Of a stretch of 64,000 nt of DNA, positions 15,094 through 63,082 are shown in pieces. Source of the DNA: Bacteroidales bacterium (lineage in GTDB: Bacteria > Bacteroidota > Bacteroidia > Bacteroidales > F082); NCBI GenBank assembly GCA_017553625.1, contig JAFZKP010000016.1, forward strand, positions 1 through 64,000, given 5' to 3'. Made by a program: the position numbers and the translations under genes. A model generated the notes under the pieces. The model was not told the origin of the DNA and did no database searches. It saw only the letters and a program-made list of their open reading frames with translations. Every line of letters starts with the position of its first letter. The first letter of the stretch is position 1.

Positions 15094-15226
15094 CCAGTTA
15101 GCCAGTTAGCCAGTTAGTCAGTTAGCCAGTTAATCAGTTGTTCAGTTGACTGGTCAAAACTGACTAACTGAACAACTGACTAACTGAACAACTGACTAAC
15201 TGAACAACTGACTAACTGAACAACTA
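15077..15226. repeat. CAGTTAGC tandem dyad array between moxR and the C69 peptidase gene (family D)
   Basis: Left half: several 8-bp CAGTTAGC units. Centre: GACTGGTC. Right half: four copies of AACTGACTAACTGAAC. The halves are reverse-complementary. It overlaps the last moxR codons and ends next to the stop codon of the convergent peptidase gene. Same family as 14047-14130. Confidence 0.9.
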
Positions 15227-33867: not shown

Positions 33868-33984
33868 GTAGAGACGGATGAAAATCCGTCTCAATATCTG
33901 ATGAAAATCCGTCTCAATATCTGATGAAAATCCGTCTCAATATCTGAGAAAATCCGTCTCAATATCTGATGAAAATCCGTCTCT
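33868..33984. repeat. Family B hairpin followed by degenerate 23-bp tandem copies
   Basis: One full GTAGAGACGGATGAAAATCC hairpin, then four tandem partial units of period about 23 bp built on CTGATGAAAATCCGTCTCAA (one lacks GAT). The half-units keep the right arm only, as if the hairpin had been expanded by slippage or recombination. Confidence 0.9.
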
Positions 33985-33996
33985 TTTAAAGAAATT

Positions 33997-34020
33997 GTCA
34001 TTCCGAGCGAAGCGAAGAAA
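33997..34020. repeat. Family A half-element upstream of the TolC-like gene
   Basis: GTCATTCCGAGCGAAGCGAA follows immediately after the family B cluster; this is the left arm of the family A dyad without its partner. It lies 24 bp before the TolC-like ATG. Confidence 0.75.
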
Positions 34021-34044
34021 CTAATAAAAATATTTAAATACTAT

Positions 34045-36333: not shown

Positions 36334-37446
36334 ATGGTAGAAAATGAACATTTTGAAAATCAGAAGCACGAATGGGAATCTGCATTGCAGGTGACTGGCA
36401 GCGACCAGCCTGCAGTGCAGGTTAACCCTAAGGCGTTGGAACGTCTGATGCTCAGCCGTCAGAAACTCCTTCCGTTGAAAGAATATGTCGACGGCATACT
36501 TGCTGGAGATATCACCATATTGAGCAAGGCTATCACATTGGTTGAGAGTTCTTTGCCTGCTCATCAGAAATTAGCACAAGAAATCATCGCGGAGTGCATA
36601 CCATATAGCGGTAAGGCGCTTCGTTTAGGTATTACCGGTGTTCCTGGTGCTGGAAAAAGCACCTTCATCGAGGCTCTCGGCATGGAGCTGTGCCGCCAGA
36701 ACAAACGCATCGCCGTGCTCGCCATCGACCCGAGTTCGCAACGTTCCAAGGGCTCAATCCTCGGCGACAAGACGCGCATGGAAGAACTGTCGCAGCAGCG
36801 TAACGCCTACATCCGACCGTCAGCGTCGGCAGGCACATTGGGCGGCGTGGCACGCAAGACGCGCGAGGCTATCATCCTCTGCGAGGCTGCCGGTTTCGAC
36901 ACCATCATCGTCGAAACTGTCGGTGTCGGACAGAGCGAGACAGCCGTATATTCCATGGTCGATTACTTTCTTCTCGTGCTTATCGGCGGTGCCGGCGACG
37001 AGCTGCAGGGCATCAAACGCGGCATCATGGAGATGGCTGACGGCATCGTCGTCAACAAAGCCGACGGCGACAATGTGAACCGCGCCAACCGCGCCGCCGC
37101 CGAGATACGCAACGCCGTGCATCTGTTCCCGCCTTCCGAATCGGGACAGGAAGTGAAGGTGACAACATGCTCCGCCATGACACACTACAACGTGCCAGAG
37201 GTCTGGAACATGGTGCTAACCCACGTCGAAAATATCAAAAAATCAGGCTATCTCGACGAAAAACGCGCCCGCCAGGACGTCCAGATGATGCTCGACACCA
37301 TCGAAAACACCCTGAAATCTAACTTCTACGAGAACGAAAAAATCAAAAACTGGCTCGGCATCGTAGAGAAAAACGTCGAAGAAAAAAAAATCAGCGCCTA
37401 CGAAGGAGCCCGACGATTGCTTAATATGTACTCGCTGCGCTCGTAA
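36334..37446 (+). CDS. meaB: MeaB/ArgK family GTPase (methylmalonyl-CoA mutase chaperone)
   Basis: G3E-type GTPase of 370 aa that protects and reloads B12-dependent methylmalonyl-CoA mutase. Walker A GVPGAGKST (about 102-110), AIDPSSQRSKGSILGDKTRM, VETVGVGQSE, and the VVNKADGD base-specificity motif. The mutase genes are not in this window. The final residues (M-Y-S-L-R-S-stop) are read from a hairpin-array unit, so the native C-terminus may have been changed. The start sits 4 nt after its -7 box. Confidence 0.92.
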   Translation: MVENEHFENQKHEWESALQVTGSDQPAVQVNPKALERLMLSRQKLLPLKEYVDGILAGDITILSKAITLVESSLPAHQKLAQEIIAECIPYSGKALRLGITGVPGAGKSTFIEALGMELCRQNKRIAVLAIDPSSQRSKGSILGDKTRMEELSQQRNAYIRPSASAGTLGGVARKTREAIILCEAAGFDTIIVETVGVGQSETAVYSMVDYFLLVLIGGAGDELQGIKRGIMEMADGIVVNKADGDNVNRANRAAAEIRNAVHLFPPSESGQEVKVTTCSAMTHYNVPEVWNMVLTHVENIKKSGYLDEKRARQDVQMMLDTIENTLKSNFYENEKIKNWLGIVEKNVEEKKISAYEGARRLLNMYSLRS

Positions 37447-37450
37447 AAAG

Positions 37451-37579
37451 TGTACTCACTTCGTTCGTAATGTGCAGCTTTTGGCTGAATGTGAGCGCTT
37501 TGCGCTATGGGCAAAGCCCACACATTCCGCGAAGCGGCGCATTTCGCGAAGCGGAACATTGCCTGAAAGGCATCATATT
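37451..37579. repeat. Array of short hairpins separated by AATGTG / ACATT (family C, second copy)
   Basis: Begins TACTCACTTCGTTCGTAATG, close to the start of the array at 6757. Stems: CAGC/GCTG, AGCGC-TTT-GCGCT, GGGC-AAA-GCCC, CCGC-GAA-GCGG, GCCT-GAA-AGGC. Linkers switch from AATGTG to ACATT in the middle. Stem sequences differ from the first array while linkers and layout agree. It sits between meaB and the glnA promoter. Confidence 0.85.
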
Positions 37580-37634
37580 TCCATATTGTTGATAAAATTG
37601 TTGAAAAAATTGTCGCCCGTATAGTTTTTTGCCA

Positions 37635-37642
37635 TATCTTTG
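37635..37642 (+). promoter_or_regulatory. Bacteroidetes -7 box for glnA
   Basis: TATCTTTG, an exact TAnnTTTG match, with a TTG-containing -33 region near 37610. The leader to the ATG is about 55 nt. Confidence 0.7.
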
Positions 37643-37698
37643 CAAGTCCAATTACATTGTAAAATTAATTTAATAAATATAAAATTTTGCAACTTATC

Positions 37699-46305: not shown

Positions 46306-49300
46306 ATGAAAAAAGTTTTTCTATTTCTGACGATGCTTTTGTTCGCCTTCACAGGTGTAATGAGAGCTGGTGTAGATGTGGAAGTGGGTATGGCTTCGTC
46401 AACCAACAGCTATCTCCCAGATTACACATACTACGACTACGCAGTATCACAGCAGATTTACACTGCCAGTGAGATTGGAATGGGCGGTACCATCAACGCC
46501 ATCAGCTTTGATGTCGCTTCAGGTTCTGCCACACGTTCATTGAAAGTGTACATGAAACATGTTACGAAGAGCGTTTTCGGTGGCACAACAGCCAGCGAGT
46601 GGGCACAGTTCTCCACATCAGACGTTCTTTTTGAAGGAAATGTTACATGGGCAGCCGGTTGGGTTACAATCACACTCGATACCCCATTCGAGTATAATGG
46701 AACAGACAACCTGCTCGTTTGTGTTCAGGATGCAACAGGTAGCTATGTTTCATCACAGTCATTTCGTGTTTATTCATCTTCATACGCTGCATTGCGCGCT
46801 TATCGTGATGGTACACCATACGATATCAGCAATTTGAGCGGTGGTTCACGTATTTCTTACAAGAACCATATCAAGTTGAACATGGAACTCGGACCAGCTA
46901 ACATCACAGCTACTCCGAATCCTGTTGAACTCGGCTTGCGTCCAAACGGCGCTTGGATGAGACCAGGCACATTTACACTCAATAACGGTGGCAACAACGC
47001 TACAGTTACAGCACTTGAGACAAACAACAGCTACTTCACTGTTAACTCAACAGTTCCTTTCGCAGTGAACTTCGGTGAACCAGTTGAAGTTGAAGTTACA
47101 ACAGGTACAACCAACGCAGGTGAAGTCACAGGACAGCTCATGTTCGCTTATTCAGACAGAACTTTCGGAATGGTTGACGTTACAGCTACAGCATACGACC
47201 CGGTTGACGGTGATGTTGCTGAGACAGCTATCGTTGTCAATGAAATGCCATTCCAGGGCAATGCTCCTCAGGGCATCTACAAGAACTATGTTCTTCCAGT
47301 TGCAACAGAAGGTGCAGACGCTGTTTACAAAGTGACATTTGACGAGCCAGTTCTCTTCAGTGCAGGTACTCCAGGTGATGCTCCAGCAGCAGCACTTTAC
47401 ACAGAAGATTTCAATGGTGTCGGCGGTCCTGACGCAGAAAACAACTATGTGTACAATGGTCCACAGGTGAACCCAGGTCCAACCAATATGTGGTTCAGCT
47501 ACGCTTACACAGGCAGCAACACATGGTACGGCACATCAGCAGGTGGCGGATTCTACTTCGGCTACAATATTCCTGTAGAATACATTGCTGAATTAGGTCT
47601 TGCAGGTACAACTATCACAACAGTTGAGGCAGCAGCTCGCGAGGCTTATCCATACGAGTGCTTCATCTTAGAAGGTGGTAGCAATCCTGACGAAGCTACA
47701 TTTATCGGCTATGGTGCTATTGAGAACACAATAGCTCAGTATTTCTTCGACATCAACCTCGAAGTTCCTGCATACGTAAGCGGTGAAAACAACATTTGGG
47801 TTATGTTCTATTCAAACAGCCCATACGCAGCATACTGCGGAAAGAATTTAGTTGATGTTAACAACGCTAAGATTTGGACATACAATCCAAACGCTACATC
47901 ACCAGCATGGAGCAGCAACACAACTTACACTCCTGTTATCTACACTCGTTTCATCGAGCTTCCTACAGGTCGCGAGACTACAGTGAACCTTGCTGAAATG
48001 AACATGAAGAAAGGTAACGGCGTTGTCAGCGAAATTGCAGCTCTCGACGGCGCAGCAATGGGTACTCCAAAAGCTGAAATGAAGAAAGCTAACCGTGGCA
48101 ACCGCGACATGCAGACCGTTTTTGAAGAAGGTTTCGAAGGCGGTTCAATGCCAACAGGTTGGACAACAACAGGTTCATACTGGACAATTACTTCAGGTAC
48201 AGGTAATTCAGGCTACACTGGTTCAGCAAATGGTAGCTACAATGCAGGTTGCAACATCCCTTCTTACAGCGGTAATGATGATCTCATCACACCTGCTATG
48301 GATTTGAGCGAAGCTACATCAGCCACTTTGACATTCAACTTCTGGAATACAAACTGGGGTGGTGATATCAACACCTTGAATGTATATTACAGTACAAATG
48401 GTAGCACATGGAACTTACTTGAAAGCTATGATACAGAAGTTAGCCCATGGGCATCAAAGAGCATTGCTCTTGAAGGTTTGGCAGCTAACTACCAGATTAG
48501 ATTCCAGTGCGTTGCCAACTATAGCTATGGTATGGGTATTGACGACGTTGTCGTAACAGCTGACATCACATCAGGCGGTGGCACTCCAGAGCCTCCAACA
48601 GCAACATATCAGATTGAAGACATGTATGTCCCAGCAGGTACATACTACTTGGCAGTTGCTTCAACAACTGACAACTTCCAGGTCGACATGGCAGTTGCAG
48701 AGGTTCCAGTTCCAGAACAGGCTATTGTTATCGCTCCAAACGATGGCGAGACATTTGTTGAGGCTCCGTATCTCGCAGAGTGGATCCTTGGCGACTACAC
48801 AGCAGAGATGCAGGTTTTGGTTGGTACACAGTATCCTCCACAAACAGCATTAATCGACTGGACAGACGAACTCGTCGAGTCAGCATTCTTGATGGATCTC
48901 GAGAACAACCAGACATACTTCATGCAGGTTAACTGCCGTAACGCAGCTGGCACAACAGAAGGTGAGATTTATGTCTTCTCAACACCTATTGACCCAGTTG
49001 AGGGCTTCGCAGTAGAGACAGAGGAACTCTATCCAGGTGATGCAGCAGTGTTCACATGGAATGCCAACCGTACACTCCAGGGCTACAACCTCTACATGAA
49101 CGGTGAAAAGGTTAACGAGGCACCTATCGCAGAAAACACATACAGTGTTGAAGGTCTTGAATACAACATGGATGGCTACAGCTTCCAGATTACAGCTGTT
49201 TATGACGCTGGTGAGTCAATGCCATCAAATGCTATCACTGTTTACATGACAGGCGAAGGCTCAGTGAACGGTCATGTTTATGACACAGACGTTGAGCATC

Positions 49301-52300
49301 CAATCGCTGGCGCAACAGTTATTGCAAACGGTGCTGACCAGTTCGGTGTTGAACAGACATACGAATTCACAACAGACGAAAACGGCTTCTATGAGGGTGA
49401 ACTCCTCTCAGGTCAATACCTCATCTCAATTGCTACAGAAGGCTATGAGAACGAAGGCGTTGTTGCAAATATCGTTTACAACGAGTTGACAGAAGCTGAA
49501 GACATCATCACACACGAGTTCTACTATCCACTCGGTATGATTACAGCAGCTGAAGAAGAAGCTGGTGTTAATGTTGAATGGTCATGGACACCTGCAGAAT
49601 TAGTTGTTGACTTTGAGACAGGCGACTTCTCACAGGCCAACTTCGTTTTGCCAACAACATATCCATGGACAGTTACAACAACCAACCCACACGAAGGCAC
49701 ATACTGCATGAAGTCAACATGCGAAGGTATTGCAAGCGGCACATCAGAGGTCGAGGTGACAGTTGATGTTCCTTACGACGGCAAGATGGGCTTCTGGGTA
49801 AGAGTTTCTTCAGAAGCTAACTATGACAAGTTCCACTTCTTCATCGACGGTGTTGAGAAGGGTGCAGCTATCAGCGGCCAGCAGGCATACGCATACAAAG
49901 AGTTCGATGTAACAGAAGGCACACACACATACAAGTGGCAGTATGCAAAAGACAGCTCAGTCAACAGCAATGACGACTGCGCATACGTCGACGATGTTAC
50001 ACTCTACAGATATGAGGAACCACTTCCACCAGTCGTTGGTGCAACAACATACGACTTTGATGACGACACAATGATGGGTTGGACATCAATCGACGCTGAC
50101 AACGACGGTAACGGTTGGGTATCAAGTGCAAATCCTGGTATCTACCACAATTCAGGCGTGAACTTGTCAGGTACAGGTCACAATGAGTCAGAGGCATACG
50201 TTATTTCAGGTTCATACGCTAACCAGACAGGTGCAGCTTTGACACCAGATAACTACCTCGTTTCTCCAGCAGCTATTTCAGCTGAGGCAGGTGCACAGAT
50301 TCAGTTCTGGGCATGCGCACAGGATGCAAGCTATGCAGCAGAGCACTTCGGTGTCGCTGTTTCAACAACAACAGCTACAGCAGCAGCATTCACAACAATC
50401 CAGGAATGGACAATGACAGCCAAGGGTGACCGTTCAGCTGACGCTTACAGCGCAGTCCGCGGCACAAGACAAGGCACATGGTATCAGTATTCAGTTGACC
50501 TCAGCGCATACGCAGGCCAGGACATCTGGGTTGCTATCCGTCACTTCAACTGCACAGACATGTTCATCTTGAACGTTGATGATATCACATTGGCAACAGG
50601 CGGTACAAAGCTTGCAAACGGCGACCGTACATTCCAGAGCTTCAACCTCTATCGTCGTAACAACATTACGAACGAAACTCCAGAGTTGATTGTTGAAGGT
50701 ACAACAGATTTCGAATATGTAGATGCTGAATGGGCAACATTGCCATACGGTGAGTATCAGTGGGGCGTTGCAGCCACATACGAAGGCTATGCACCAGTTC
50801 CTGAGAATCGTGAATCAGCTACATTCGGCTTCGAAGGTGGCTTAGAAGGTTGGACAGGCATTGTCGTCAACACAGCCGGTGGCGAGTGGATCCACAGCGA
50901 TGACAACCTCGGTGGTTATGACTACACAGAACTTGCACACACTGGCACAGGCTTCGCAATGTGCTACTCATATGTTGACTATGTTGGCGCATACGATACA
51001 GATGCATATCTCGTATCACCTCAGAAGTACAGCGTTGATGCCAACTCATCAATTGCATTCTGGGCAGACAATGCAAATGACTCATATCCAGAGAACTTCT
51101 CAGTTTGTGTTGCAACAGCAGCCAATCCAACAGCAGCCGACTTCACAGAGATTTGGAGCGGTGGTGCTAAGGGTACAGGCAACGGTGGCGCAGCAGTACG
51201 TCGCAGCGAAAACCGTTATGAGAACTGGCGTTCACACAATGTCAGCTTGGCAGCATACGCAGGTCAGGAGATCTGGATTGCATTCCACGATGTGAACTAC
51301 GATGCATACGAAATCTGGATTGATGATGTTACAATCACATACGCAGGAACTCCAGGTCCAGGCCCAGGCCCAACACCAGGTCCAACAGGTTCAGGTATTT
51401 CAGAGATCCTCTGGTCAAATGTGATCGAGAAGGATATGACATCAGATCTTACATTCAATGTTTCATTGAACAACGGTCAGAACGCAGCTGGTGTTGCTGT
51501 TACAGTTGCTAACGAAGAGCACACATACACAGCTACAGTCGACGAGACAGGTGTTGCAGAGTTGACAGTCCGCAAGGGCGTCTACGACATCACAGTTGCA
51601 ATGACTGGCTATGTTGAATACTTAATTGTTGATGAAGCTATTGAAGAGAACACAATGGAATACAATGTCGTTCTCAACGAAATCGTTGCTCCAGTTGATG
51701 GTCTCTACGTATCACCAACAGGTTGGGCAATGTGGGAAGGCGCAACACCAACTCCAACACCAGGTCCAGGTCCACAACCAGGCGGTGATGAGTCATACGA
51801 CTTCGACGATGCTACAATGATGGGTTGGACAACAATCGACGCTAACAACGACGGTTATGACTGGGTGATGGGTTCACAGATTGGTGGTATCTACTTGGCA
51901 TCAGGCGCAAGCCTCGCCGGCACAGGCCACAACTCATCAGCAGACATGGTTTGCTCAGGTTCATACAGCAATGCAACATCAATGGCTATCACACCTGATA
52001 ACTACCTCGTATCACCTAACAAGGCTCGTTACTCAAGCATTACATTCTATGCATGCGCTCAGGATGCAAGCTATGCAGCAGAGCACTATGGTGTAGCAGT
52101 TTCAACAGCTGGTAACACATCAGCATCAGACTTCACAATGGTTCAGGAATGGACAATGACATCCAAGGGTTCAGGCGTCAACAGCTTCGGCCGTGACGGT
52201 CAGACAAGAGCTCAGGGTTCATGGTATGAGAAGACAGTTGACCTCAGCGCATACGCAGGACAAGACATCTATGTCGCTATCCGCCACTTCAACTGCAACG

Positions 52301-54642
52301 ACCAGTTCATCTTGAATGTTGATGACGTAACACTCACAGCAGGTTCAAAGGATCGCGCTCCATTGTACTACAAAGTCATGTGCGACAACACATACCTTGG
52401 CGAGACAGAATATCCATTCTATCAGATGCCAGTTGAGGGTATGGAAGAAGGTTCAGAGCACACCACAGCAGTTGCAGCATTCTATGCAACAGGTATGGGT
52501 GACTGGATGAGCTACGATTGGACATACGCTCCATGCAGCAACTACGCTGGTACAACAGAATACAATGTTACAGCTAACGGCAACGATGTCACACTCACAT
52601 GGACATTGAACGGCACACCAGGTCCAGGTCCACAACCAGGTCCAGGTACAGACGAGTCATACGACTTCGAAGATGGCACATTCCAAGGCTGGACAACAAT
52701 CGACGCTAACAACGACGGTTATGACTGGGTGATGGGTTCACAGATTGGTGGTATCTACTTGGCATCAGGCGCAAGCCTCGCCGGCACAGGCCACAACTCA
52801 TCAGCAGACATGGTTTGCTCAGGCTCATACAGCAATGCAACATCAATGGCTATCACACCTGATAACTACCTCGTATCACCTAACAAGGGTGCATACCAGA
52901 GCATCACATTCTATGCATGCGCACAGGATGCAAGCTATGCAGCTGAACACTACGGTGTAGCAGTTTCAACAGGTGGTGCAACAGCATCAGAATTCACAAT
53001 GGTTCAGGAGTGGACAATGACAGCCAAGGGTTCAGGCATCAACAGCCTCGGCCGTGACGGTCAGACAAGAGCTCAGGGTTCATGGTATGAGAAGACCGTT
53101 GACCTCAGCGCATACGCAGGCCAGCAGATCTGGGTTGCTATCCGCCACTTCAACTGCAACGACCAGTTCATCCTCAATGTTGATGACATTACACTCACAG
53201 CAGCTACAAAGGGTGAAAGAGAAATGTGGGATCTTGTTTACTCATTCCAGGGCACATCAGGCTATCAGTATGGTGTTGCAACAGATGGTAACAACATCTA
53301 CACAAGCTCATGGTCAGCAAGCTCAACATCAATGTTCTACAAGTATGACATGCAGGGCAACTTCGTTGAGGAATTCAACATTTCAGGTTGCGGTCAGCTC
53401 CGCGGTATGACATACGACGGTGAGTACTTCTATGGCGTTGCCAACTCATCAACAGTCTACTGTGTTGACCTTGCAAACCAGACATTGGTTGCTTCATTCA
53501 GCACAAGCTACGGTGCAATGCGTTGCATCACTTACGATCCAGTAAGAGACGGCTTCTGGGTAGTCGGTAACTGGTCAGGCAACTTGACCCTCATCGACCG
53601 TACAGGTGCTATCGTCCAGACAGCTGCTGCTCCAACAAGCGCATCAGATGTTGCTTACTACAAGGATTCAGACGATGTCGAGCACATTTACTACATCAAG
53701 AACGAATCCGGCAACGGTGAAGTTTACGAGTACAACATCACAACTGGTACAATGGGTTCAACACCTGTTTACAACTGCTTGAACACAACAGGCGGTGCAG
53801 CATCATGGACTGGTAGTTCAGGTGGATGCTTCGTTGCTGAATACGATGGCAAGATGTGCTTCTTCGCAGATGCACAGCAGTCACCACAGTTGATCAACAT
53901 CTATGAGCTCAGCGCTGACGCTCCGGGTCCAGGTCCAGGTCCACAACCAGGCAATATCCTCGGCGTTATGATTTGGCGTGACGGCGAGCCTATCACTATG
54001 GCTCCAGTTTCTGGCACATCATACGTTGACGCAGGTGTTGAGAACGGCGAACATGAATATTGCGTAAGAGTTGTTTACAGCGACTATGCAATGTCATGCG
54101 ACGAGTGCGAGACAGTAGAAGTCGGCGGTACAGTTGTTTGCGATCCTGTAACCAACTTGACAGCTTACTACTATTTTGACGCAACATACGGCGATGGTGC
54201 TATGATTGAATGGGATGGCAACGAAAATGCTGTTTCATACGGTATTTATGTTGGTGGCCAGTATCTCGGTTCAACAACAGAAGAGAGCGTATTCCTCTAT
54301 GGTCTCACCTATGGTGCAACATACACATTAGGTATTGTTGCCGAGTACGCTAACTGCGAATCAGAAATGGTTACAATCCAGTACACACATGATGATGGTG
54401 TGGAAGAGAACGCTATTGTCAGCGAGATCTATCCTAACCCAACAAGTGGCAACCTCAACATCAAGGCTACAGCAATGACTCAGATCAGCATCTACAATGC
54501 AATGGGTCAGATGGTGTACAGCCAGGATGTTAACGCTGACGAAATGGTTATCGACATGAGCCAGTTCGAGGCCGGTGTTTACATGGTGAACATCATTACT
54601 GAAAACGGTAGCGCAGTCAAACGCATTACAGTTGTAAAGTAA
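46306..54642 (+). CDS. Giant T9SS-secreted modular adhesin 2 (HagA/gingipain-type modules)
   Basis: Paralogue of the preceding gene, 2778 aa. Signal peptide 1-21. Order: TNSYLPDY module (22-197), Ig-like domain (200-313), a region with an embedded FNGVGGPDAENNYVY segment (about 365-580), divergent MAM/adhesin-like domain (605-760), FN3-like region, regulatory-like domain (985-1070), adhesin-like domain (1095-1240), cleaved-adhesin copy C (1245-1435), divergent copy (1505-1685), regulatory-like domain (1700-1800), copies D (1828-2020) and E (2115-2305), propeller-like segment (2305-2550), and T9SS sorting domain (about 2700-2778). PGPGPQPG linkers separate modules. It shares the ACA/TCA/GCA/CCA codon skew. 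Adhesion or host-glycoprotein and haem binding is suggested by family likeness only. Confidence 0.9.
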   Translation: MKKVFLFLTMLLFAFTGVMRAGVDVEVGMASSTNSYLPDYTYYDYAVSQQIYTASEIGMGGTINAISFDVASGSATRSLKVYMKHVTKSVFGGTTASEWAQFSTSDVLFEGNVTWAAGWVTITLDTPFEYNGTDNLLVCVQDATGSYVSSQSFRVYSSSYAALRAYRDGTPYDISNLSGGSRISYKNHIKLNMELGPANITATPNPVELGLRPNGAWMRPGTFTLNNGGNNATVTALETNNSYFTVNSTVPFAVNFGEPVEVEVTTGTTNAGEVTGQLMFAYSDRTFGMVDVTATAYDPVDGDVAETAIVVNEMPFQGNAPQGIYKNYVLPVATEGADAVYKVTFDEPVLFSAGTPGDAPAAALYTEDFNGVGGPDAENNYVYNGPQVNPGPTNMWFSYAYTGSNTWYGTSAGGGFYFGYNIPVEYIAELGLAGTTITTVEAAAREAYPYECFILEGGSNPDEATFIGYGAIENTIAQYFFDINLEVPAYVSGENNIWVMFYSNSPYAAYCGKNLVDVNNAKIWTYNPNATSPAWSSNTTYTPVIYTRFIELPTGRETTVNLAEMNMKKGNGVVSEIAALDGAAMGTPKAEMKKANRGNRDMQTVFEEGFEGGSMPTGWTTTGSYWTITSGTGNSGYTGSANGSYNAGCNIPSYSGNDDLITPAMDLSEATSATLTFNFWNTNWGGDINTLNVYYSTNGSTWNLLESYDTEVSPWASKSIALEGLAANYQIRFQCVANYSYGMGIDDVVVTADITSGGGTPEPPTATYQIEDMYVPAGTYYLAVASTTDNFQVDMAVAEVPVPEQAIVIAPNDGETFVEAPYLAEWILGDYTAEMQVLVGTQYPPQTALIDWTDELVESAFLMDLENNQTYFMQVNCRNAAGTTEGEIYVFSTPIDPVEGFAVETEELYPGDAAVFTWNANRTLQGYNLYMNGEKVNEAPIAENTYSVEGLEYNMDGYSFQITAVYDAGESMPSNAITVYMTGEGSVNGHVYDTDVEHPIAGATVIANGADQFGVEQTYEFTTDENGFYEGELLSGQYLISIATEGYENEGVVANIVYNELTEAEDIITHEFYYPLGMITAAEEEAGVNVEWSWTPAELVVDFETGDFSQANFVLPTTYPWTVTTTNPHEGTYCMKSTCEGIASGTSEVEVTVDVPYDGKMGFWVRVSSEANYDKFHFFIDGVEKGAAISGQQAYAYKEFDVTEGTHTYKWQYAKDSSVNSNDDCAYVDDVTLYRYEEPLPPVVGATTYDFDDDTMMGWTSIDADNDGNGWVSSANPGIYHNSGVNLSGTGHNESEAYVISGSYANQTGAALTPDNYLVSPAAISAEAGAQIQFWACAQDASYAAEHFGVAVSTTTATAAAFTTIQEWTMTAKGDRSADAYSAVRGTRQGTWYQYSVDLSAYAGQDIWVAIRHFNCTDMFILNVDDITLATGGTKLANGDRTFQSFNLYRRNNITNETPELIVEGTTDFEYVDAEWATLPYGEYQWGVAATYEGYAPVPENRESATFGFEGGLEGWTGIVVNTAGGEWIHSDDNLGGYDYTELAHTGTGFAMCYSYVDYVGAYDTDAYLVSPQKYSVDANSSIAFWADNANDSYPENFSVCVATAANPTAADFTEIWSGGAKGTGNGGAAVRRSENRYENWRSHNVSLAAYAGQEIWIAFHDVNYDAYEIWIDDVTITYAGTPGPGPGPTPGPTGSGISEILWSNVIEKDMTSDLTFNVSLNNGQNAAGVAVTVANEEHTYTATVDETGVAELTVRKGVYDITVAMTGYVEYLIVDEAIEENTMEYNVVLNEIVAPVDGLYVSPTGWAMWEGATPTPTPGPGPQPGGDESYDFDDATMMGWTTIDANNDGYDWVMGSQIGGIYLASGASLAGTGHNSSADMVCSGSYSNATSMAITPDNYLVSPNKARYSSITFYACAQDASYAAEHYGVAVSTAGNTSASDFTMVQEWTMTSKGSGVNSFGRDGQTRAQGSWYEKTVDLSAYAGQDIYVAIRHFNCNDQFILNVDDVTLTAGSKDRAPLYYKVMCDNTYLGETEYPFYQMPVEGMEEGSEHTTAVAAFYATGMGDWMSYDWTYAPCSNYAGTTEYNVTANGNDVTLTWTLNGTPGPGPQPGPGTDESYDFEDGTFQGWTTIDANNDGYDWVMGSQIGGIYLASGASLAGTGHNSSADMVCSGSYSNATSMAITPDNYLVSPNKGAYQSITFYACAQDASYAAEHYGVAVSTGGATASEFTMVQEWTMTAKGSGINSLGRDGQTRAQGSWYEKTVDLSAYAGQQIWVAIRHFNCNDQFILNVDDITLTAATKGEREMWDLVYSFQGTSGYQYGVATDGNNIYTSSWSASSTSMFYKYDMQGNFVEEFNISGCGQLRGMTYDGEYFYGVANSSTVYCVDLANQTLVASFSTSYGAMRCITYDPVRDGFWVVGNWSGNLTLIDRTGAIVQTAAAPTSASDVAYYKDSDDVEHIYYIKNESGNGEVYEYNITTGTMGSTPVYNCLNTTGGAASWTGSSGGCFVAEYDGKMCFFADAQQSPQLINIYELSADAPGPGPGPQPGNILGVMIWRDGEPITMAPVSGTSYVDAGVENGEHEYCVRVVYSDYAMSCDECETVEVGGTVVCDPVTNLTAYYYFDATYGDGAMIEWDGNENAVSYGIYVGGQYLGSTTEESVFLYGLTYGATYTLGIVAEYANCESEMVTIQYTHDDGVEENAIVSEIYPNPTSGNLNIKATAMTQISIYNAMGQMVYSQDVNADEMVIDMSQFEAGVYMVNIITENGSAVKRITVVK
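50040..50620 (+). other. Cleaved-adhesin domain copy C (adhesin 2)
   Basis: Encodes FDDDTMMGWTSIDADNDGNG through LNVDDITLATGG, including AVRGTRQGTWYQYSVDLS; somewhat diverged from copies A, B, D and E, and closest to the gingipain form RGTRAQGTWYQK as I recall it. Confidence 0.8.
51795..52345 (+). other. Cleaved-adhesin domain copy D (adhesin 2)
   Basis: Encodes FDDATMMGWTTIDANNDGYD through LNVDDVTLTAG. Its DNA is almost identical to copy E over the first half. Confidence 0.85.
52660..53210 (+). other. Cleaved-adhesin domain copy E (adhesin 2)
   Basis: Encodes FEDGTFQGWTTIDANNDGYD through LNVDDITLTAA. Directly followed by the propeller-like segment, the same order as copy B in adhesin 1. 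Confidence 0.85.
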
Positions 54643-54718: not shown

Positions 54719-54838
54719 ATTTTTTTATGGGATGTTAAAAATTTTTAATAAAATTTTTTAAGAATTAAAAAACATAGAGATTTGGAAAAACCTTTTGTAA
54801 CGTGTTGTCAGTCAGAATGTTACGAGGGTGTTTGAAAA

Positions 54839-54873
54839 TTAGTCGTTTTTCGTACGACTAATTATTTTTTTTG
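54839..54873 (+). terminator. Hairpin plus T-run upstream of ssb
   Basis: Stem TTAGTCGT / ACGACTAA with a seven-base loop followed by a run of T residues: a classical intrinsic terminator shape. It separates the adhesin region from ssb. Confidence 0.7.
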
Positions 54874-54876
54874 TTA

Positions 54877-54884
54877 TATTTTTG
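54877..54884 (+). promoter_or_regulatory. Bacteroidetes -7 box for ssb
   Basis: TATTTTTG matches TAnnTTTG, 40 bp before the ATG at 54925. Confidence 0.65.
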
Positions 54885-54924
54885 CAGAGTCAAAACAAAT
54901 AACAACACTAAAAACATTAACAAA

Positions 54925-55269
54925 ATGGGAACCTTAAGGAATTCAGTTCATCTGATTGGGCGACCGGGCATGAATCCGGAAGTCAAGACATTCGGCGAGG
55001 GCAGGAAGCTCGCGAAATTCACATTAGCCACCAACGAGAAGCACTACAACGAGAAGATGGAGCTTGTAGAGGAGACGGAGTGGCATAACATCCTTGCGTT
55101 CGGAAAGACGGCTGAGAACGTCGAGAAGCTTGTCAGGAAGGGTCTTTTGATGGCGATTGAGGGCAAGATACAGACGCGGCAGTATGAGGACAGCAACAAG
55201 AACAAGCGTTATTTCACGGAGATTGTGATGGACGAGTTCATGCTTGTTGAAAAGATGAGCGCCGAATAG
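54925..55269 (+). CDS. ssb: Single-stranded DNA-binding protein, short form without acidic tail
   Basis: SSB OB-fold protein of 114 aa: NSVHLIGRPGMNPEVKTFGE, KFTLATNEKHYNEK, WHNILAFGKTAENVEKLV, GLLMAIEGKIQTRQYED. It ends EFMLVEKMSAE right after the OB-fold, without the disordered linker and acidic tip (DDDIPF type) that recruits partners in canonical SSB. It is therefore a paralogue or specialised SSB; short forms of this kind are known in Bacteroidota. I place the start at 54925; the longer opening at 54871 runs through the promoter. Confidence 0.9.
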   Translation: MGTLRNSVHLIGRPGMNPEVKTFGEGRKLAKFTLATNEKHYNEKMELVEETEWHNILAFGKTAENVEKLVRKGLLMAIEGKIQTRQYEDSNKNKRYFTEIVMDEFMLVEKMSAE

Positions 55270-55289
55270 CGTGATTAAGAAAAAAAGAC

Positions 55290-55297
55290 TATCTTTG
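55290..55297 (+). promoter_or_regulatory. Bacteroidetes -7 box for the D-2-hydroxyacid dehydrogenase
   Basis: TATCTTTG, an exact match, 30 bp before the ATG at 55328. It rules out the GTG opening at 55271 when this promoter is used. Confidence 0.65.
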
Positions 55298-55327
55298 TTG
55301 TTTGAAACAACAAAAAAACGTAGAACG

Positions 55328-56260
55328 ATGAAGATAGTCTTTTTGGAGCCGTTAGGACTCAAGGTAGAAGCCATAGAGAAGGCTTGTGACGATTTAAAGA
55401 AGCGTGGTCATGAGGTCGTGATATATCCCGACAGAAGGCCAGAGAAGAACATTGAGCGCGCTGAGGGAGCGGATGTCGTTGTGGAGAGCAACATGCCGTT
55501 GCGCAAGGACTTTTTTGACGCTTGTCCGAACCTGAAGATGCTTTCGATAGCGTTTACGGGCTTGGACCATATCGACATGGAGGAATGCAAGCGTCGCAAT
55601 ATCATAGTGAAGAACGCTGCGGGATATTCGACGGAGGCTGTGGCGGAGGAGACGATATGCATGATGATAGGGCTGTACCGTCATGTTATCGAGAACGACC
55701 GGATAACGCGCAGCTGCAAAGGCCCTTCTATTGCCCCTGGGCGCGAGATTGGCGGCAAGACGGTGGGCATCATCGGGATGGGAGCCATCGGGCAGCGTAC
55801 GGCGGCGTTGGCGCAGGCTTTCGGGTGCAAGGTGATAGCATGGAACCGCACACCGAAAGAGGTGCCTGGAGTGACGTTTGTCGACAAGGAGACGTTGCTT
55901 AAGGACGCTGACATCGTGGCACTTCATATCGCGCTGAACAACGAGACACGTGACTTCATTACTGCTAAGGATTTCGCTATCATGAAGAAGACAGCAATTA
56001 TCGTGAACGCGGCGAGGGGTCCTGTGGTGAACACCAAGGATTTGGCGGAGGCGCTGAAAAACGGGACGATAGCGGGGGCTGCATTGGATGTTTATGACGG
56101 GGAGCCGCCGCTTGATAGCAGCAATCCGATACTTGAGGCACCGAATACGATGCTGATGCCGCATGTGGGGTTTGCGACGGAGGAGGCGTTTGAATTAAGA
56201 TTGGGGATTGTTGTAGATAACATAATGAGGTTCCTCGCTCCCTGCGGTCGCTCGGAATGA
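55328..56260 (+). CDS. D-2-hydroxyacid dehydrogenase (NAD-dependent)
   Basis: About 310 aa. Rossmann motif VGIIGMGAIGQRTAALAQ; catalytic Arg in NAARGPVV, Glu in YDGEPPL and His in MPHVGFAT, the expected triad. The substrate could be a phosphoglycerate, glycerate or a 2-keto acid; no serA-type regulatory ACT domain is present. The reading frame runs into a family A repeat, which encodes the last residues RFLAPCGRSE and provides the TGA stop. The native C-terminus was probably shorter or different. Confidence 0.9.
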   Translation: MKIVFLEPLGLKVEAIEKACDDLKKRGHEVVIYPDRRPEKNIERAEGADVVVESNMPLRKDFFDACPNLKMLSIAFTGLDHIDMEECKRRNIIVKNAAGYSTEAVAEETICMMIGLYRHVIENDRITRSCKGPSIAPGREIGGKTVGIIGMGAIGQRTAALAQAFGCKVIAWNRTPKEVPGVTFVDKETLLKDADIVALHIALNNETRDFITAKDFAIMKKTAIIVNAARGPVVNTKDLAEALKNGTIAGAALDVYDGEPPLDSSNPILEAPNTMLMPHVGFATEEAFELRLGIVVDNIMRFLAPCGRSE

Positions 56261-56261
56261 C
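56227..56261. repeat. Family A repeat at the dehydrogenase 3' end
   Basis: GAGGTTCCTCGC...GGAATGAC orientation, with an inner hairpin CTCCCTGCGGTCG. It overlaps the last ten codons and the stop. Confidence 0.85.
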
Positions 56262-56286
56262 AGGGGAACGAAAAAAGTGACAATTT

Positions 56287-56452
56287 GAGGTTACTTGATG
56301 GGGTTCCTCACCCCTAAAGGGGTTCGGAATGACAAGAGCTTTAAACGTGAACAATGTGGCGCGGCTTGACGATTAATGATAAAACCTTGAGACGTTGTGC
56401 CGCGCCAAAATATAATAAGAGGTTGTCATTCCGAGCACGAAGTGCGAGGAAT
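56287..56452. repeat. Left 166-bp direct repeat flanking the GIY-YIG gene
   Basis: Composite: a family A dyad with hairpin CCCC-TAAA-GGGG (about 56303-56333), a long stem-loop with arms TGGCGCGGC (56357-56365) and GCCGCGCCA (56399-56407), and a second family A element GTCATTCCGAGCACGAAGTG (from 56425). The right copy is the same length and differs at about eight positions, all in the first 70 bases by my reading. Confidence 0.93.
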
Positions 56453-56475
56453 TTCATTAAATAAAAACAAAATTT

Positions 56476-56802
56476 ATGAAATCAAAAAAATACTACATTT
56501 ACATAATGACAAACAAATACAGAAAAGTTCTGTATATTGGTGTTACCGGTAATTTAGAAGAGCGAATTAGGCAACATAAAAACCATCAATTTAAAAACTC
56601 ATTTACAGATAAATATAATTGTGAATATTGTATTTATTATGAAGAGTTTAATTACATAAACAATGCTATTGATAGGGAAACAGAGCTAAAAAAATGGAAT
56701 CGAAAGAAAAAGGAAGCTCTGATAAATAAGTTAAATCCTGAATGGAGAGAGATTGTTAATGAAAGAGGTTATATAAGACAAGGAGTTTCGTCGTATGGTT
56801 GA
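56476..56802 (+). CDS. Small GIY-YIG nuclease domain protein
   Basis: Single-domain GIY-YIG endonuclease of 108 aa (YhbQ/UvrC-N-like class). Motifs: YYIYIMTN and VLYIGVTGNL for GIY and YIG, catalytic Arg in LEERIRQHK, metal-binding Glu in DRETELKKW, and KLNPEW. All catalytic positions look intact. The gene is AT-richer than its neighbours and lies alone between two 166-bp direct repeats; its stop codon is 1 bp from the right copy. The family is not assigned a firm cellular role. The context suggests a mobile cassette; see findings. Confidence 0.9.
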   Translation: MKSKKYYIYIMTNKYRKVLYIGVTGNLEERIRQHKNHQFKNSFTDKYNCEYCIYYEEFNYINNAIDRETELKKWNRKKKEALINKLNPEWREIVNERGYIRQGVSSYG

Positions 56803-56803
56803 T

Positions 56804-56969
56804 GAGGTTGCTTGATGAGGTTTCTCATCCCCGAAGGGGTTCGGAATGACATGAGCTTTAAACGGGAACAATGTGGCGCGGCTTGACGATTAATGATAAA
56901 ACCTTGAGACGTTGTGCCGCGCCAAAATATAATAAGAGGTTGTCATTCCGAGCACGAAGTGCGAGGAAT
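56804..56969. repeat. Right 166-bp direct repeat flanking the GIY-YIG gene
   Basis: Same orientation and length as 56287-56452, including the GGCGCGGC stem-loop and the terminal GTCATTCCGAGCACGAAGTG element. The last ~97 bp appear identical between copies. It ends 9 bp before the dnaG stop codon. Confidence 0.93.
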
Positions 56970-56977
56970 ACCATAAA

Positions 56978-58915
56978 CTATTTTGTAATTACGATTCCGA
57001 GGTCGCGGTTGATGCGGTTGCGGATGTCGTCGAGGTGTTTCTTTTTTTTGAGGAGGATGAGCTGTTCGTCGAGGTCGGCGGTTTCTTTCATCTCTTTCAT
57101 GATTTCGGCGCGGCGGTCTTCAATGACCATATCTTTGAAGCGCAGTATGGACATGAGGACGGTTTTCTTGAGGACGTCGTCTTCGGTTTTGACCACGATA
57201 CGGTGACGGAGCCAGTCGTCGAGCTTGTATTGCGTGCTGAGAAGGTTAGCGGTCAGTTCGGCGACATCTTGGTCTTCACTTGATATGAATTGCTGTATTG
57301 TCGGGAGTTCGCCGGTGTCGAGACCGCGGTCGAAGGCATCGAAAATCTTTTTGTGCGTCTCATTTTTGAAGAGAAGACCGTCGTTTTTAAGGTCGTCGAT
57401 GATGAGAGAAGCTATGGTGGTGGTGTAGTCATCCAACTCGATGGTGTCGGTGCCGTGAGTGAGGAGGAGTTTCACGAGTTCCTGCTCCTGATAGAAGCCG
57501 ATAGGGACTGAATCTTGCTCAACTGGAGGCTGCTGAGAGGACGGATAGGGCTCATAGGACGGAGAGGTCTGATAGGAGCCTTGTGAAGGATCCATTCCCA
57601 ACTGTTTGCGGTATTTTGCGCGTAGGAGCTTGTTGAGCTCGTTCATCAGGGTTTGCTCGGCGACTTCAAGCATGCGGCTGCATTCCTTGACGTAGGTGGC
57701 GCGATAAATCGGGTCGGGGATGACGGAGATGGTCTCCACGATGTCTTTTATGACGGCGGCTTTCTTTATCGGGTCGTTTTTGGCGTCTTTCAGGAGAAGA
57801 TTCGTCTTGAAGCTGATAAAATCCTTGGCGTTGTCAGCCAGGTATTTGGTGACGACTTCGATAGGGTTGTTCTGCACGAAGGAGTCGGGGTCGTCTTCAG
57901 GAGGCAGCACCACGATACGCACATTCATGCCTTCTTCGAGAATCATGTTCGTGCCACGCAGAGCGGCGTGAATACCGGCAGCGTCGCCATCGTAGAGCAT
58001 CGTTATATTTTTGGTATAACGGCTTATCATACGGATTTGCTCTGTTGTAAGCGAGGTGCCTGAGCTTGCCACGACGTTTTCAATTCCTGCCTGGTGCATC
58101 GACAGCACGTCGGCGTAACCTTCAACGAGGATACAGTTGTCAAGGCGTGAAATCTCATTTCTGGCAAAGAAAATTCCGTAAAGGGTCTGACTTTTATTAT
58201 AAATCTCCGATTCAGGAGAGTTGACGTATTTTGCCTTGGTTTTTTCGGAAGTGAGAATACGTCCTCCGAAGCCGATGACTTTTCCGGTAAGGTTATGAAT
58301 CGGGAAAATGACGCGTCCCTGATAACGGTCGTAGAGGCGGTTTTCGTAGCTTCCAGTGAGACCGACTTTGATGAGAAGGTCTTTGTCGTAGCCGTGTTTG
58401 ATGGCGTAATCGGTGAAGGCAGAGCCGCTATTTGGACAATATCCGAGTTGGAACTTGTTGATGATTGCATCTCTGAAGCCGCGTCCGCGGAAGTATGAGA
58501 GACCGACGGACAGGCCTTCATCGGAGTTCATCATGATATTTGAGAAATAGTCTTGCGCGAAGCTGTTGATGTTGAACATACGTTCGCGTTCGTTCTGCGC
58601 CGCCAGTTCTTCGGGAGTCTGCTCGCGTTCCTCAATCTTGATGCCGTATTTCTTAGCGAGATAACGGAGCGCCTCTTGGAAAGAATAATGCTCGTGCTCC
58701 ATGATGAAACGCACGGAGTCGCCAGCTTTTCCGCAGCCGAAGCATTTGAAGATGTTGCGGGCGGGGTTGACATTGAACGAAGGTGTCTTTTCCTTATGGA
58801 AAGGGCATACGCCGATGAGGTTGGAGCCGCGTTTTTTAAGCGTGACGAACTCGCTCACCACGTCTTCGATGCGTGCTGTCTCGAGAATCTGGTTTATGGT
58901 GTCGCGCGGTATCAT
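56978..58915 (-). CDS. dnaG: DNA primase
   Basis: Synthesises RNA primers at the replication fork, 645 aa. N-terminal CHC2 zinc finger (C37, H40, C58, C61), RNA-polymerase core, TOPRIM motifs ILVEGYADVLSMHQAG and MLYDGDAAG, then a Pro/Ser/Tyr-rich linker (about 440-475) and a C-terminal helicase-interacting region. Its ATG overlaps the atoE stop by 4 bp, so it is translated as the third gene of a leftward group, an unusual setting for primase. Confidence 0.97.
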   Translation of the reverse strand: MIPRDTINQILETARIEDVVSEFVTLKKRGSNLIGVCPFHKEKTPSFNVNPARNIFKCFGCGKAGDSVRFIMEHEHYSFQEALRYLAKKYGIKIEEREQTPEELAAQNERERMFNINSFAQDYFSNIMMNSDEGLSVGLSYFRGRGFRDAIINKFQLGYCPNSGSAFTDYAIKHGYDKDLLIKVGLTGSYENRLYDRYQGRVIFPIHNLTGKVIGFGGRILTSEKTKAKYVNSPESEIYNKSQTLYGIFFARNEISRLDNCILVEGYADVLSMHQAGIENVVASSGTSLTTEQIRMISRYTKNITMLYDGDAAGIHAALRGTNMILEEGMNVRIVVLPPEDDPDSFVQNNPIEVVTKYLADNAKDFISFKTNLLLKDAKNDPIKKAAVIKDIVETISVIPDPIYRATYVKECSRMLEVAEQTLMNELNKLLRAKYRKQLGMDPSQGSYQTSPSYEPYPSSQQPPVEQDSVPIGFYQEQELVKLLLTHGTDTIELDDYTTTIASLIIDDLKNDGLLFKNETHKKIFDAFDRGLDTGELPTIQQFISSEDQDVAELTANLLSTQYKLDDWLRHRIVVKTEDDVLKKTVLMSILRFKDMVIEDRRAEIMKEMKETADLDEQLILLKKKKHLDDIRNRINRDLGIVITK

Positions 58916-60336
58916 ATTGCCCAGATTAGAAGTCCGCCGATGATGATGATTCCGGAAACGACGAGGTCAATGAGGCAGAACCCCATGATATCCTTTGCGT
59001 TGAGTTTCGCTATAGCGAGAGCGGGCAGAGCCCAGAACGGCTGGATGAGGTTGGTCCAAGCGTCGCCCCAAGCTATTGCCATGCCCGTGAGTCCGTGGTC
59101 GACGTTGAGCGCTTCGCCGGCGGCGAACATGATAGGCGCTTGAATAGCCCAGTGACCGCCACCAGAAGGGACGAACATGTTGAGAATGGCAGCGCAAAGG
59201 AAGGTGTATATCGGATAAGTCGTTGACGTAGAGATGTTTACAAACGCCTCGCTAACCACTGTGCCGAGGCAGATGCCCGATGCGCCGACTCCAGTGATGA
59301 TGCCCATGATGCCAGCATAAAACGGGAACTGAAGCAGTATGCCTGCCGCGCCGCTGACGGATTTTCCGAAAGAACGGACATAGGCGATGGGCGTTTTATG
59401 TAAAATGATACCAAGGAACAGGAAAAGCAGGATAACCGAGCCGAGGTCGAAGGATTTGCCTTTAATAAACAGGCTGATGACAAGATAGGATAAGCCTAAT
59501 AAGGCCAATAGGGCGGATAGGAGACGGCTGTTTTCCAATCTCATGGCAGGGGTAACGGACGAATGATGATTCGATTCGGGCGAATGATGATTCGATTCGG
59601 GCGAATGATGATTCGATTCGGGCGAATGATGATTCGCCCCTACGACATCGTCTTCTTGCAATAAGGCGGGGTCGATGGTGACGAGGCCTGTTTTGGGGTG
59701 CATGGCAGAATTGATTGCCACGAGCGCGATGGTGACGAGCACCACCATGATGATGTTATGATAGTCGAGGATGGTGTTTGAGATGTGTATCGTGCTGGTT
59801 ATCACGCCGTTAGTGTCTTTCACGAGGTCGTTGAGGTCGGAAGCCATTTTCAGCGGGATGGAGCCGGAGATACCAGCGTGCCACACCACGAAACCGCTAT
59901 ATGCCGAAGCGATGAGGAGGCGGTAGTCGACGCCTTTGAGTTTTTTTGCTATCTCTTTGGCGAAGATGGCACCGACGATGAGTCCGAAGCCCCAGTTGAG
60001 CCAGCATGCCACGGCCGAGATGCCTGTCACGAGAGCTATTGCGCCAGCTGGCGTTTTAGGCAATGAAGCGAGTTTGCTGATACCTTTTTTGATAAATGGA
60101 GCGGCCGCTAATGTAGCGCCGGTGACGAGGACGAGAGCCATCTGCATAGAGAACCCAAGCAGATTCCACACGCCGCCGCCCCAGTTGCATACCACCTCCG
60201 TGATGCTCTGTTTGCACACCGGCATAGCCACGGCGATTGCCAAAAAAGTCAAAACGATAGCGAAAATGAAAGGCTCAGGCAGATATTTCTGCATGAAATT
60301 CACACAACCTGTTATGACTTTTTGGAAGAACTTCAT
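58912..60336 (-). CDS. atoE: AtoE-type short-chain fatty acid transporter with in-frame repeat expansion
   Basis: Polytopic inner-membrane transporter of 474 aa, about 11-12 hydrophobic segments. AtoE/SCFA family features include LPEPFIFAIVLTFLAIA at the start, ISGSIPLKMA and FVPSGGGHWAIQAPI near the end. It likely takes up acetoacetate or other short-chain acids. A hydrophilic loop near residues 232-259 consists of NHHSPES repeats encoded by an expanded family B palindrome. Its stop overlaps dnaG and its start overlaps the preceding nuclease gene (both ATGA). Confidence 0.9.
   Translation of the reverse strand: MKFFQKVITGCVNFMQKYLPEPFIFAIVLTFLAIAVAMPVCKQSITEVVCNWGGGVWNLLGFSMQMALVLVTGATLAAAPFIKKGISKLASLPKTPAGAIALVTGISAVACWLNWGFGLIVGAIFAKEIAKKLKGVDYRLLIASAYSGFVVWHAGISGSIPLKMASDLNDLVKDTNGVITSTIHISNTILDYHNIIMVVLVTIALVAINSAMHPKTGLVTIDPALLQEDDVVGANHHSPESNHHSPESNHHSPESNHHSSVTPAMRLENSRLLSALLALLGLSYLVISLFIKGKSFDLGSVILLFLFLGIILHKTPIAYVRSFGKSVSGAAGILLQFPFYAGIMGIITGVGASGICLGTVVSEAFVNISTSTTYPIYTFLCAAILNMFVPSGGGHWAIQAPIMFAAGEALNVDHGLTGMAIAWGDAWTNLIQPFWALPALAIAKLNAKDIMGFCLIDLVVSGIIIIGGLLIWAI
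59560..59643. repeat. Family B repeat expanded in tandem inside atoE
   Basis: Three 21-bp units CGAATGATGATTCGATTCGG(G), then a terminal CGAATGATGATTCGCCCCTA(C). The complete parent dyad is seen at 61660-61684. Because 21 is a multiple of three, the frame is kept and each unit adds NHHSPES. Confidence 0.92.
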
Positions 60337-63052: not shown

Positions 63053-63082
63053 ATGAGATTTCTCACTACGTTGGGAATGACA
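63053..63082. repeat. Degenerate family A dyad in the subtilase leader
   Basis: GAGATTTCTCACTACGTTGG followed by GAATGAC: the reverse orientation of the family A element, shortened. Confidence 0.65.

Follow-up and report, generated by a model that had tools for sequence, protein, structure and literature searches.

A small GIY-YIG nuclease gene in the genome of a Bacteroidales bacterium is enclosed by two copies of a palindromic unit. Units of the same kind, with a preferred internal geometry, are dispersed over the genome, related nucleases of other clades are accompanied by other palindromes, and alleles exist that are empty or hold a solitary unit. We read these observations as a REPtron-like selfish pair that is built on a GIY-YIG nuclease, a reading to which we assign a probability of roughly 0.7. 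In such a pair, the nuclease would bind and cut its own palindromes and, together with a repair step, would cause them to spread. A preliminary description of this DNA had already proposed that the nuclease serves its own palindromes in the manner of RAYT transposases, with an unrelated fold. This is borne out for the association and co-diversification of the two partners, with cutting and copying as the putative activities behind it.

The window, i.e. the whole stretch of 64,000 nucleotides that was analysed, belongs to a genome (G000) of 2.47 Mb in 52 contigs that is 86.7% complete. The nuclease gene (56476-56802, plus strand, 108 aa; recognized from the list of open reading frames, a match to PF01541 and conserved residues in the alignment) lies between two direct copies of a 178-nt unit on the plus strand, the left at 56286-56463 and the right at 56803-56980. 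Self-comparison of the window shows these copies to be 93% identical without gaps and spaced by 517 nt, with a longest common exact stretch of 104 nt (locus L058). The enclosure by two repeats of the same orientation had thus been correctly described, as had the presence of an identical stretch, whereas the lengths given earlier (166 bp for the repeat and about 97 bp for its identical part) fall short of those measured here. Also in agreement with the preliminary description, each unit contains two tagged dyads of family A (TGTC-ATTCC..GGAA; 56304-56333 on the minus and 56425-56451 on the plus strand in the left unit, 56821-56850 on the minus and 56942-56968 on the plus strand in the right one) as well as a central hairpin, GGCGCGGC / GCCGCGCC, with a 33-nt loop (56358-56406 and 56875-56923), similar hairpins being present in dispersed units. 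The plan of the unit is a minus-strand dyad, a GC-rich hairpin and a plus-strand dyad, with the GTC tags facing one another; folded as single-stranded DNA, the right unit reaches -31 kcal/mol (z -4.8). A third, single tagged dyad is found just upstream of the left unit by pattern counts and dyad scan (56231-56261, minus strand), and the stop codon of the nuclease gene directly adjoins the right unit (gene end 56802, unit start 56803). The neighbours of this cassette are a D-2-hydroxyacid dehydrogenase gene on one side and dnaG on the other, and a scan of 55900-57300 against Rfam gave no match to an RNA family.

Over the whole 2.47-Mb genome, GTCATTCCGAG occurs 38 times versus twice for the reversed pattern, and the full A dyad pattern 64 times versus 0 for the reversed control. 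In the window itself, the scattering of A dyads is real though weaker than had been implied: dyad scans found a single A dyad at 7263-7285 (plus strand), at a place where the relative G051 carries a different palindromic repeat, as well as degenerate A dyads at 63059-63081 (minus strand) and at 33997. To these comes an inverted pair of dyads of the sister type P (GTCATTTCGA..GAGAAATC; 3964-4064, with dyads at 3964 and 4042), which is absent from G051. Comparison with G051 revealed no clean target-site duplication at the dyad sites of the window. The repeat of G051 at the place of the 7263 dyad is a GAGACG..CGTCTC palindrome, and a GATGAAAATCCGTCTC repeat array at 33870-34036, with an A dyad at its end, is missing from G051.

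The 108-aa protein matches PF01541 with 57 bits against a cut-off of 22.6; the same Pfam scan also returned T5orf172 and, below threshold, YqbF_HeH, and Transposase_17 was absent from it. It is encoded by an intact reading frame, the sole short stand-alone GIY-YIG gene found in this genome, the other match being a frame of 591 aa. An alignment of 20 diverse members shows no variation at Tyr9, Tyr20, Gly22 and Arg30, with Glu68 and Asn87 present in at least 90%; these six residues we take to be the GIY-YIG catalytic set. The gene is under purifying selection, with dN/dS values of 0.04-0.12 in eight of 15 nuclease pairs, i.e. those in which the ratio was computable, dS being zero or saturated in the others. 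An AlphaFold2 model (mean pLDDT 90.1, pTM 0.83, single domain) agrees with a small alpha/beta nuclease domain, and no second domain was seen in the 108-aa protein. By profile comparison, the closest solved sequences are the UPF0213 proteins 1zg2 (BH0048; 5.8e-12) and 1ywl (EF2693), whose entry names give no function; UvrC and group I intron endonucleases are matched weakly. Two other identities of the gene were considered and set aside: as phage cargo, it lacks any match among 50,697 phage records, and a scan of viral contigs yielded a single partial relative; as a defence gene, its PADLOC matches are weak and partial (best E 0.00047).

From named contigs and from genomes of the genus and the order, 155 GIY-YIG genes found by profile were reduced to 136 unique ones. 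Palindromes adjoin most of these genes, and their sequence differs by nuclease clade. Nine types were distinguished: A (GTCATTCCGA..GAGGAAT), P (as given above, differing from the A dyad by one base per arm), B (ATTCCG..CGGAAT), C (ATTCCC..GGGAAT), D (GTCATTGCGAG..CAATC), E (CCTGAGCCTGTCGAAGG), G (GTCATNGCGG..CCGCNATC), H (ATGTCATTCC..GGAATCTAT) and I (TTCCCGC..GCGGGAA). These nine patterns, which were written after the flanks of many of these loci had been viewed and were then applied uniformly to all, label 115 of the 136 genes and leave 21 without a label. Where 300 bp were present on both sides (123 genes), 105 genes carry a label, and 78 of these carry it on both flanks. In a test that is free of such patterns, exact repeats of at least 14 nt between the two flanks were found for 81 of 120 GIY-YIG genes versus 6 of 454 offset windows and, with the remaining ORFs at these loci as control, for 78 of 127 GIY-YIG genes versus 6 of 143. 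Chance or an assembly artefact is ruled out, since records designated as complete show the pattern as well and it exceeds matched controls. A GTCAT tag on hairpins of both sides is rare in types B, C and E (0/6, 0/15 and 2/19 genes, respectively). At one locus (L147), nucleases of clades G and H lie about 1.2 kb apart, each next to its own palindrome type.

The dispersed copies have an architecture of their own. A survey of 22 short stretches (of 28 fetched) in G000 and G051 yielded ten solo units, with close pairs or single dyads in other stretches. In nine of the ten, the tags face each other across a gap of 90-96 nt that contains a central GC-rich hairpin (loop of 33-34 nt); L172, the remaining one, has a 122-nt gap and another hairpin. 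Across all fetched loci, the preferred geometry of neighbouring dyads differs by palindrome family: tags point inward in 26 of 28 A pairs (16 of them spaced 84-102 nt), in 27 of 41 C pairs (all 87-93 nt apart) and in only 13 of 30 B pairs (92-115 nt apart), and P pairs are outward (12, mostly 57 nt), inward (13, 10-14 nt) or tandem (5). Type G dyads formed no pair in the fetched loci. Within single P dyads, Watson-Crick pairing at the first inner position is found in 69 of 75, involving three pair types (34.9 expected from shuffling), a tandem G.A mismatch is retained in equally many (69/75), and inner pairs 2 and 3 are unpaired in simple register (pairing in 16/75 and 1/66). With a looser A pattern, which also picks up other palindrome families, the first inner pair is formed in 75 of 109 dyads (shuffled 35.2) and the G.A mismatch is present in 46 of 109; in these 109 loosely defined A-type dyads, the base preceding GTC is T in 93, C in 12 and A in 4. 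The conservation of the first inner pair and of the G.A mismatch points to selection acting on the foot of the hairpin.

An important question is whether nucleases and palindromes have diversified together or merely share the history of their hosts. On a tree of the 136 proteins, which has 111 columns and many unsure forks and on which none of P, A, B and G forms a single clade, the nine labels of the 115 genes require 10 changes, with 8 as the least possible number and a mean of 79 after shuffling of labels (none of 200 shuffles was as low as 10). Clades assigned from the protein alone equal the palindrome label in 96 of 103 genes, a comparison from which 12 reference loci were excluded that were kept in the within-genome and per-context tests; the seven mismatches comprise five proteins of A-like sequence that are accompanied by P dyads, a C protein with a B palindrome and an I protein with a G palindrome. 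In the 17 genomes with two or more clades, all 46 labelled loci are concordant, which none of 10,000 within-genome shuffles achieved, and 38 of 38 loci in 14 genomes remain concordant when the reference loci and L032 are removed. When each clade is represented by a single gene per genomic context, the match holds for 50 of 57 (seven of the 57 being reference loci), compared to a mean of 7.25 and a maximum of 19 in shuffles. The 21 unlabelled genes were dropped from the tree-change, within-genome and per-context counts. Loci were placed in genomes as follows: L032 in G019, its gene DNA being equal to that of L075, L013 in G114 and L014 in G015, each with the same protein, and L011, L012 and L016 in G051, G096 and G058. 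Given the concordance within genomes, with and without the reference loci and L032, host ancestry is not the explanation for the match between nuclease and palindrome.

Copy numbers across genomes tell a related story with more exceptions. Five palindrome types were counted in 99 genomes of the genus, and genus-wide correlations of copy number are confounded by host lineage. A dyads number 32-83 in all six genomes with an A nuclease; for the remaining 93, the median is 0. Relatives rich in these dyads that lack a nuclease of this clade, which had been named beforehand as evidence against the pairing, exist in part, as 12 of the 93 genomes without an A-clade nuclease hold at least five A dyads. 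Eight of these 12 carry the sister clade P, and in the other four (G017, G063, G067 and G110, with 7-25 A dyads) no short GIY-YIG gene was recognized. G017 has one weak sub-threshold match in a 111-aa frame, and the single match in G067 is a frame of 96 aa located at the end of a contig; it was not picked up by the profile, and we take it for a putative cut-off longer gene. Loss of the gene followed by slow decay of the palindromes could give such dyad-rich, gene-free genomes. For types C, G and D, 24 of 96, 14 of 86 and 18 of 83 genomes are rich in the palindrome without a cognate nuclease among the matches listed, in part because nucleases were scored among these matches only and assemblies are incomplete. 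The ratio of A to P dyads is 0.66-2.91 in the six genomes with an A nuclease versus 0.06-0.85 in nine with a P nuclease (p 0.0026; G041, counted as P clade with 0 P dyads, was omitted), and 0.04-0.25 in five genomes of the A/P lineage with neither nuclease.

The gene itself is patchy, being present in 16 of 40 genomes of one survey of relatives (G000 included), and it changes place. In the spacer between dnaG and the dehydrogenase gene, G000 and G051 have the full cassette and G096 has the gene with a worn right side, a lone partial unit without the gene is seen in G075 and a single dyad in G011, and nine other genomes are without a dyad. In G114, G015, G009, G001 and G040, gene order in this region differs, and no dnaG match was found in G089. 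A single repeat without the gene, which the preliminary description had proposed to look for, is found as the partial unit of G075. Locus comparison identified a second site in the spacer between meaB and the glutamine synthetase gene, which in the window (37438-37698) is free of the nuclease, as in G051, and which houses the cassette in G015, G058 and G114. In G015, the duplicated stretch extends about 30 bp into meaB, as if the unit together with its local flank had been duplicated at insertion. The number of genomic contexts per clade ranges from 2 to 13, with only three for the 22 genes of clade G. A nuclease that always lies in unrelated contexts without these repeats, the other observation named as contrary to the pairing, was not what emerged, and relatives of family A have the same dyads on their flanks as the window. 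On a plasmid of Azospirillum lipoferum 4B (L242:1495-1788), a nuclease gene with CGTC palindromes is located between sufB and sufC. The nuclease genes of G000 and G051 are 99.4% identical, which at first suggested that the cassette had recently been transferred between these genomes, yet ssb, the dehydrogenase gene and the spacer are about as alike (96-100%), and since high identity spans the whole region, the identity of the gene is no evidence of transfer. Over window positions 54800-56980, i.e. ssb, dehydrogenase and cassette, identity of G000 and G051 is mostly 96-100% per 100 bp, and it drops to 67% in parts of dnaG, which suggests that the region may hold a recombined tract.

How might such a pair operate? 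The nuclease would recognize the foot of its own tagged hairpin, i.e. C/TGTC followed by a stem starting with AT, which in family P and in typical A dyads has the conserved tandem G.A mismatch. The palindrome may be recognized in its extruded state, as a hairpin of one strand or as a cruciform, probably while the DNA is replicated, and the nuclease would then cut at or near the tag, with repair or copying from another copy multiplying the unit. The gene would move as unit-gene-unit, with the near-identical units serving as homology arms or representing a duplicated target, so that a solo unit may gain the gene and a cassette may collapse back to a solo unit. Known GIY-YIG enzymes hydrolyse DNA and are not known to have strand-transfer chemistry, and therefore this kind of spread would need host repair. 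This chemistry counts against our reading, as do the dyad-rich genomes in which no cognate nuclease was recognized, the genes without a label or with a label on one side, the scarcity of GTCAT tags in types B, C and E, the unpaired inner positions of P dyads and the failure to find a clean target-site duplication. Hairpin recognition is made likely by parallels to TnpA-REP of E. coli, for which a 5' tag and a stem mismatch are described as needed for activity (PMC8266576); E. coli REP sequences have the tag and a conserved stem mismatch (PMC2817692 and PMC8266576).

The most serious alternative, which we regard as unlikely, assigns the spread of the palindromes to something else, with the nuclease as a free-standing homing endonuclease that inserts there, cuts solo units and is copied in by repair. 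The frequent position of the gene between duplicated units, the gene-free unit at the same spacer in G075, the weak similarity of the profile to group I intron endonucleases and the existence of dyad-rich genomes without the gene would all be expected from such a parasite. It need not cause, however, the palindrome sequence to shift with the nuclease clade, even inside single genomes, or the A/P dyad ratio to track the nuclease present. Free-standing GIY-YIG homing endonucleases do share with our system the GIY-YIG domain with its conserved residues as well as a proposed selfish movement, but differ from it by having one fixed allele rather than 2 to 13 contexts per clade and dispersed cognate palindromes, and no second domain is seen in the 108 aa. 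A host housekeeping nuclease of the Slx1 or UvrC kind, clearing harmful hairpins or cruciforms and co-adapting to local palindromes, appears very improbable: the relationship to UPF0213 and, weakly, to UvrC and the ability of the unit to fold as a single strand speak for it, but a housekeeping gene would rather stay put than be patchy, change place and sit inside duplicated units. A third view, in which the hairpins act as terminators or regulators for the nuclease gene and are carried along with it by a different transposase, is the least probable: although the stop codon adjoins the right unit, most of the 64 genome copies are away from the gene, few other ORFs have such flanks (6/143) and CGTC repeats are reported near transposase genes only rarely and fortuitously (PMC3733652).

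The selfish pair of nuclease and palindrome, which we continue to prefer, may extend far beyond the Bacteroidales. The CGTC-tagged REPs are described by Di Nocera, De Gregorio and Rocco (2013; PMC3733652) as having a CGTC tag, an 8-9 bp stem beginning with AT, a 4-5-nt loop and a CCA tail, and as elements that "lack a dedicated transposase", with few and fortuitous associations with transposase genes. A plasmid collection provided 33 records of relatives of the nuclease, reduced to 17 non-redundant loci. A strictly defined C/TGTC-tagged hairpin lies at most 300 bp from the gene in 11 of these 17 named loci versus 3 of 83 control windows, a contrast that is somewhat flattered by the use of two windows per locus and one per control. 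A looser rule that allows CCTC and stems without an AT start, set after the misses of the strict rule had been seen, is satisfied by 15 of 17 loci (11 on both sides) versus 12 of 102 control windows; Planktothrix and Spirosoma were missed by both rules, with mismatched TGTCAT palindromes visible there by eye. Most strict matches have CGTC, an 8-9 bp stem starting with AT, a 4-5-nt loop and a CCA tail, and this published form is seen at loci of Neisseria, several rhizobia, Azospirillum, Aeromonas and Photobacterium. On the flanks of the Neisseria gonorrhoeae locus lies ATTCCC(N8)GGGAAT, the dRS3 pattern (PMC3898611). Two N. gonorrhoeae records of 2.17 Mb in the collection, NZ_CP119140.1 and NZ_CP119142.1, are filed as plasmids and, to judge from their size, are probably chromosomes.

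Our palindromes resemble the CGTC-tagged REPs, including dRS3 of Neisseria, in the CGTC or TGTC tag, the AT start of the stem and the inverted pairs. The tag is an unpaired CGTC, TGTC or CCTC, the nuclease-side repeats of rhizobia, Neisseria and Azospirillum have the published stem, loop and mostly also CCA tail, and head-to-head dimers predominate, as in the A pairs (26/28) if the tagged end is taken as the head. In contrast, the published account links no enzyme to these repeats (PMC3733652), and family A of the window, whose stem starts with AT, adds a tandem G.A mismatch, a variable inner stem and a central GC hairpin and has no CCA tail. With RAYT/REP systems (REPtron, REPIN, BIME), the likeness consists in a small nuclease gene with its own palindromes on both sides, numerous copies dispersed elsewhere, tagged hairpins that form inverted pairs and co-diversification of enzyme and palindrome. 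The enzyme, however, is GIY-YIG (PF01541) and not an HUH tyrosine transposase (PF01797) of the IS200/IS605 type, the tag is C/TGTC rather than GTAG, and the flanks in the window are whole units in direct orientation, each holding an inverted dyad pair. The system would thus be new by enzyme class, since it would operate in the manner of a REPtron without the HUH transposase that defines one. We lean towards the broader proposal that small GIY-YIG nucleases are the enzymes of the super-family of CGTC-tagged REPs across bacteria, including dRS3/NIME of Neisseria and the rhizobial palindromes. This would be an ancient system for spreading palindromes, independent of RAYT/REP and non-homologous to it, with a hydrolytic nuclease and host repair in place of a transposase.

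Both the palindrome class and the protein family are known, and their pairing is new as far as the literature matches listed reach, a search that covered few subscription papers and lay outside preprints: among these matches, no link between GIY-YIG and dispersed bacterial palindromes was found. The word GIY-YIG is absent from PMC3733652, 'palindrom' is absent from the phylogenomic survey of GIY-YIG proteins (PMC1564403), and a REP survey of 2025 (PMC12306157) uses neither 'nuclease' nor 'transposase'. The earlier remark that no established description of such a system was known therefore stands for the pairing of nuclease and palindrome, but not for the palindromes themselves, which resemble REPs already on record (PMC3733652). 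If our reading is correct, bacteria have a second, independent machinery for spreading palindromes, a function could be assigned to many proteins annotated as 'GIY-YIG nuclease family protein', and every clade would offer a hairpin-specific nuclease ready for use, with its target evident from the palindromes beside the gene. Candidates for living REPtrons of an unexpected enzyme class are present in the window as well as on replicons of the cultured Sinorhizobium meliloti and Azospirillum lipoferum, and since the latter are plant- and soil-associated bacteria in culture, the question can be addressed with a purified protein (roughly 95-110 aa) and an oligonucleotide that forms the hairpin.

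Several observations concern repeats of other kinds. In G005 (L190:3539-3889), a gene of the 23S rRNA-intervening-sequence type (PF05635, tested in this genome) lies between AGTTTGAAGTTTGAAG-like repeat tracts, and such a gene with such tracts is seemingly also present in the same dnaG spacer of G110 and G063; this is possibly a second pairing of a gene with repeats. Elsewhere in the window, AGTTAGTCAGTTAATCAG tracts at 14042-14126 and 15093-15197 are shorter in or absent from G051, an ORF for 2778 aa at 46306-54642 has internal repeats that align many-to-many with G051, and a predicted protein of 474 aa (58912-60336, minus strand) contains in-frame NHHSPES repeats.
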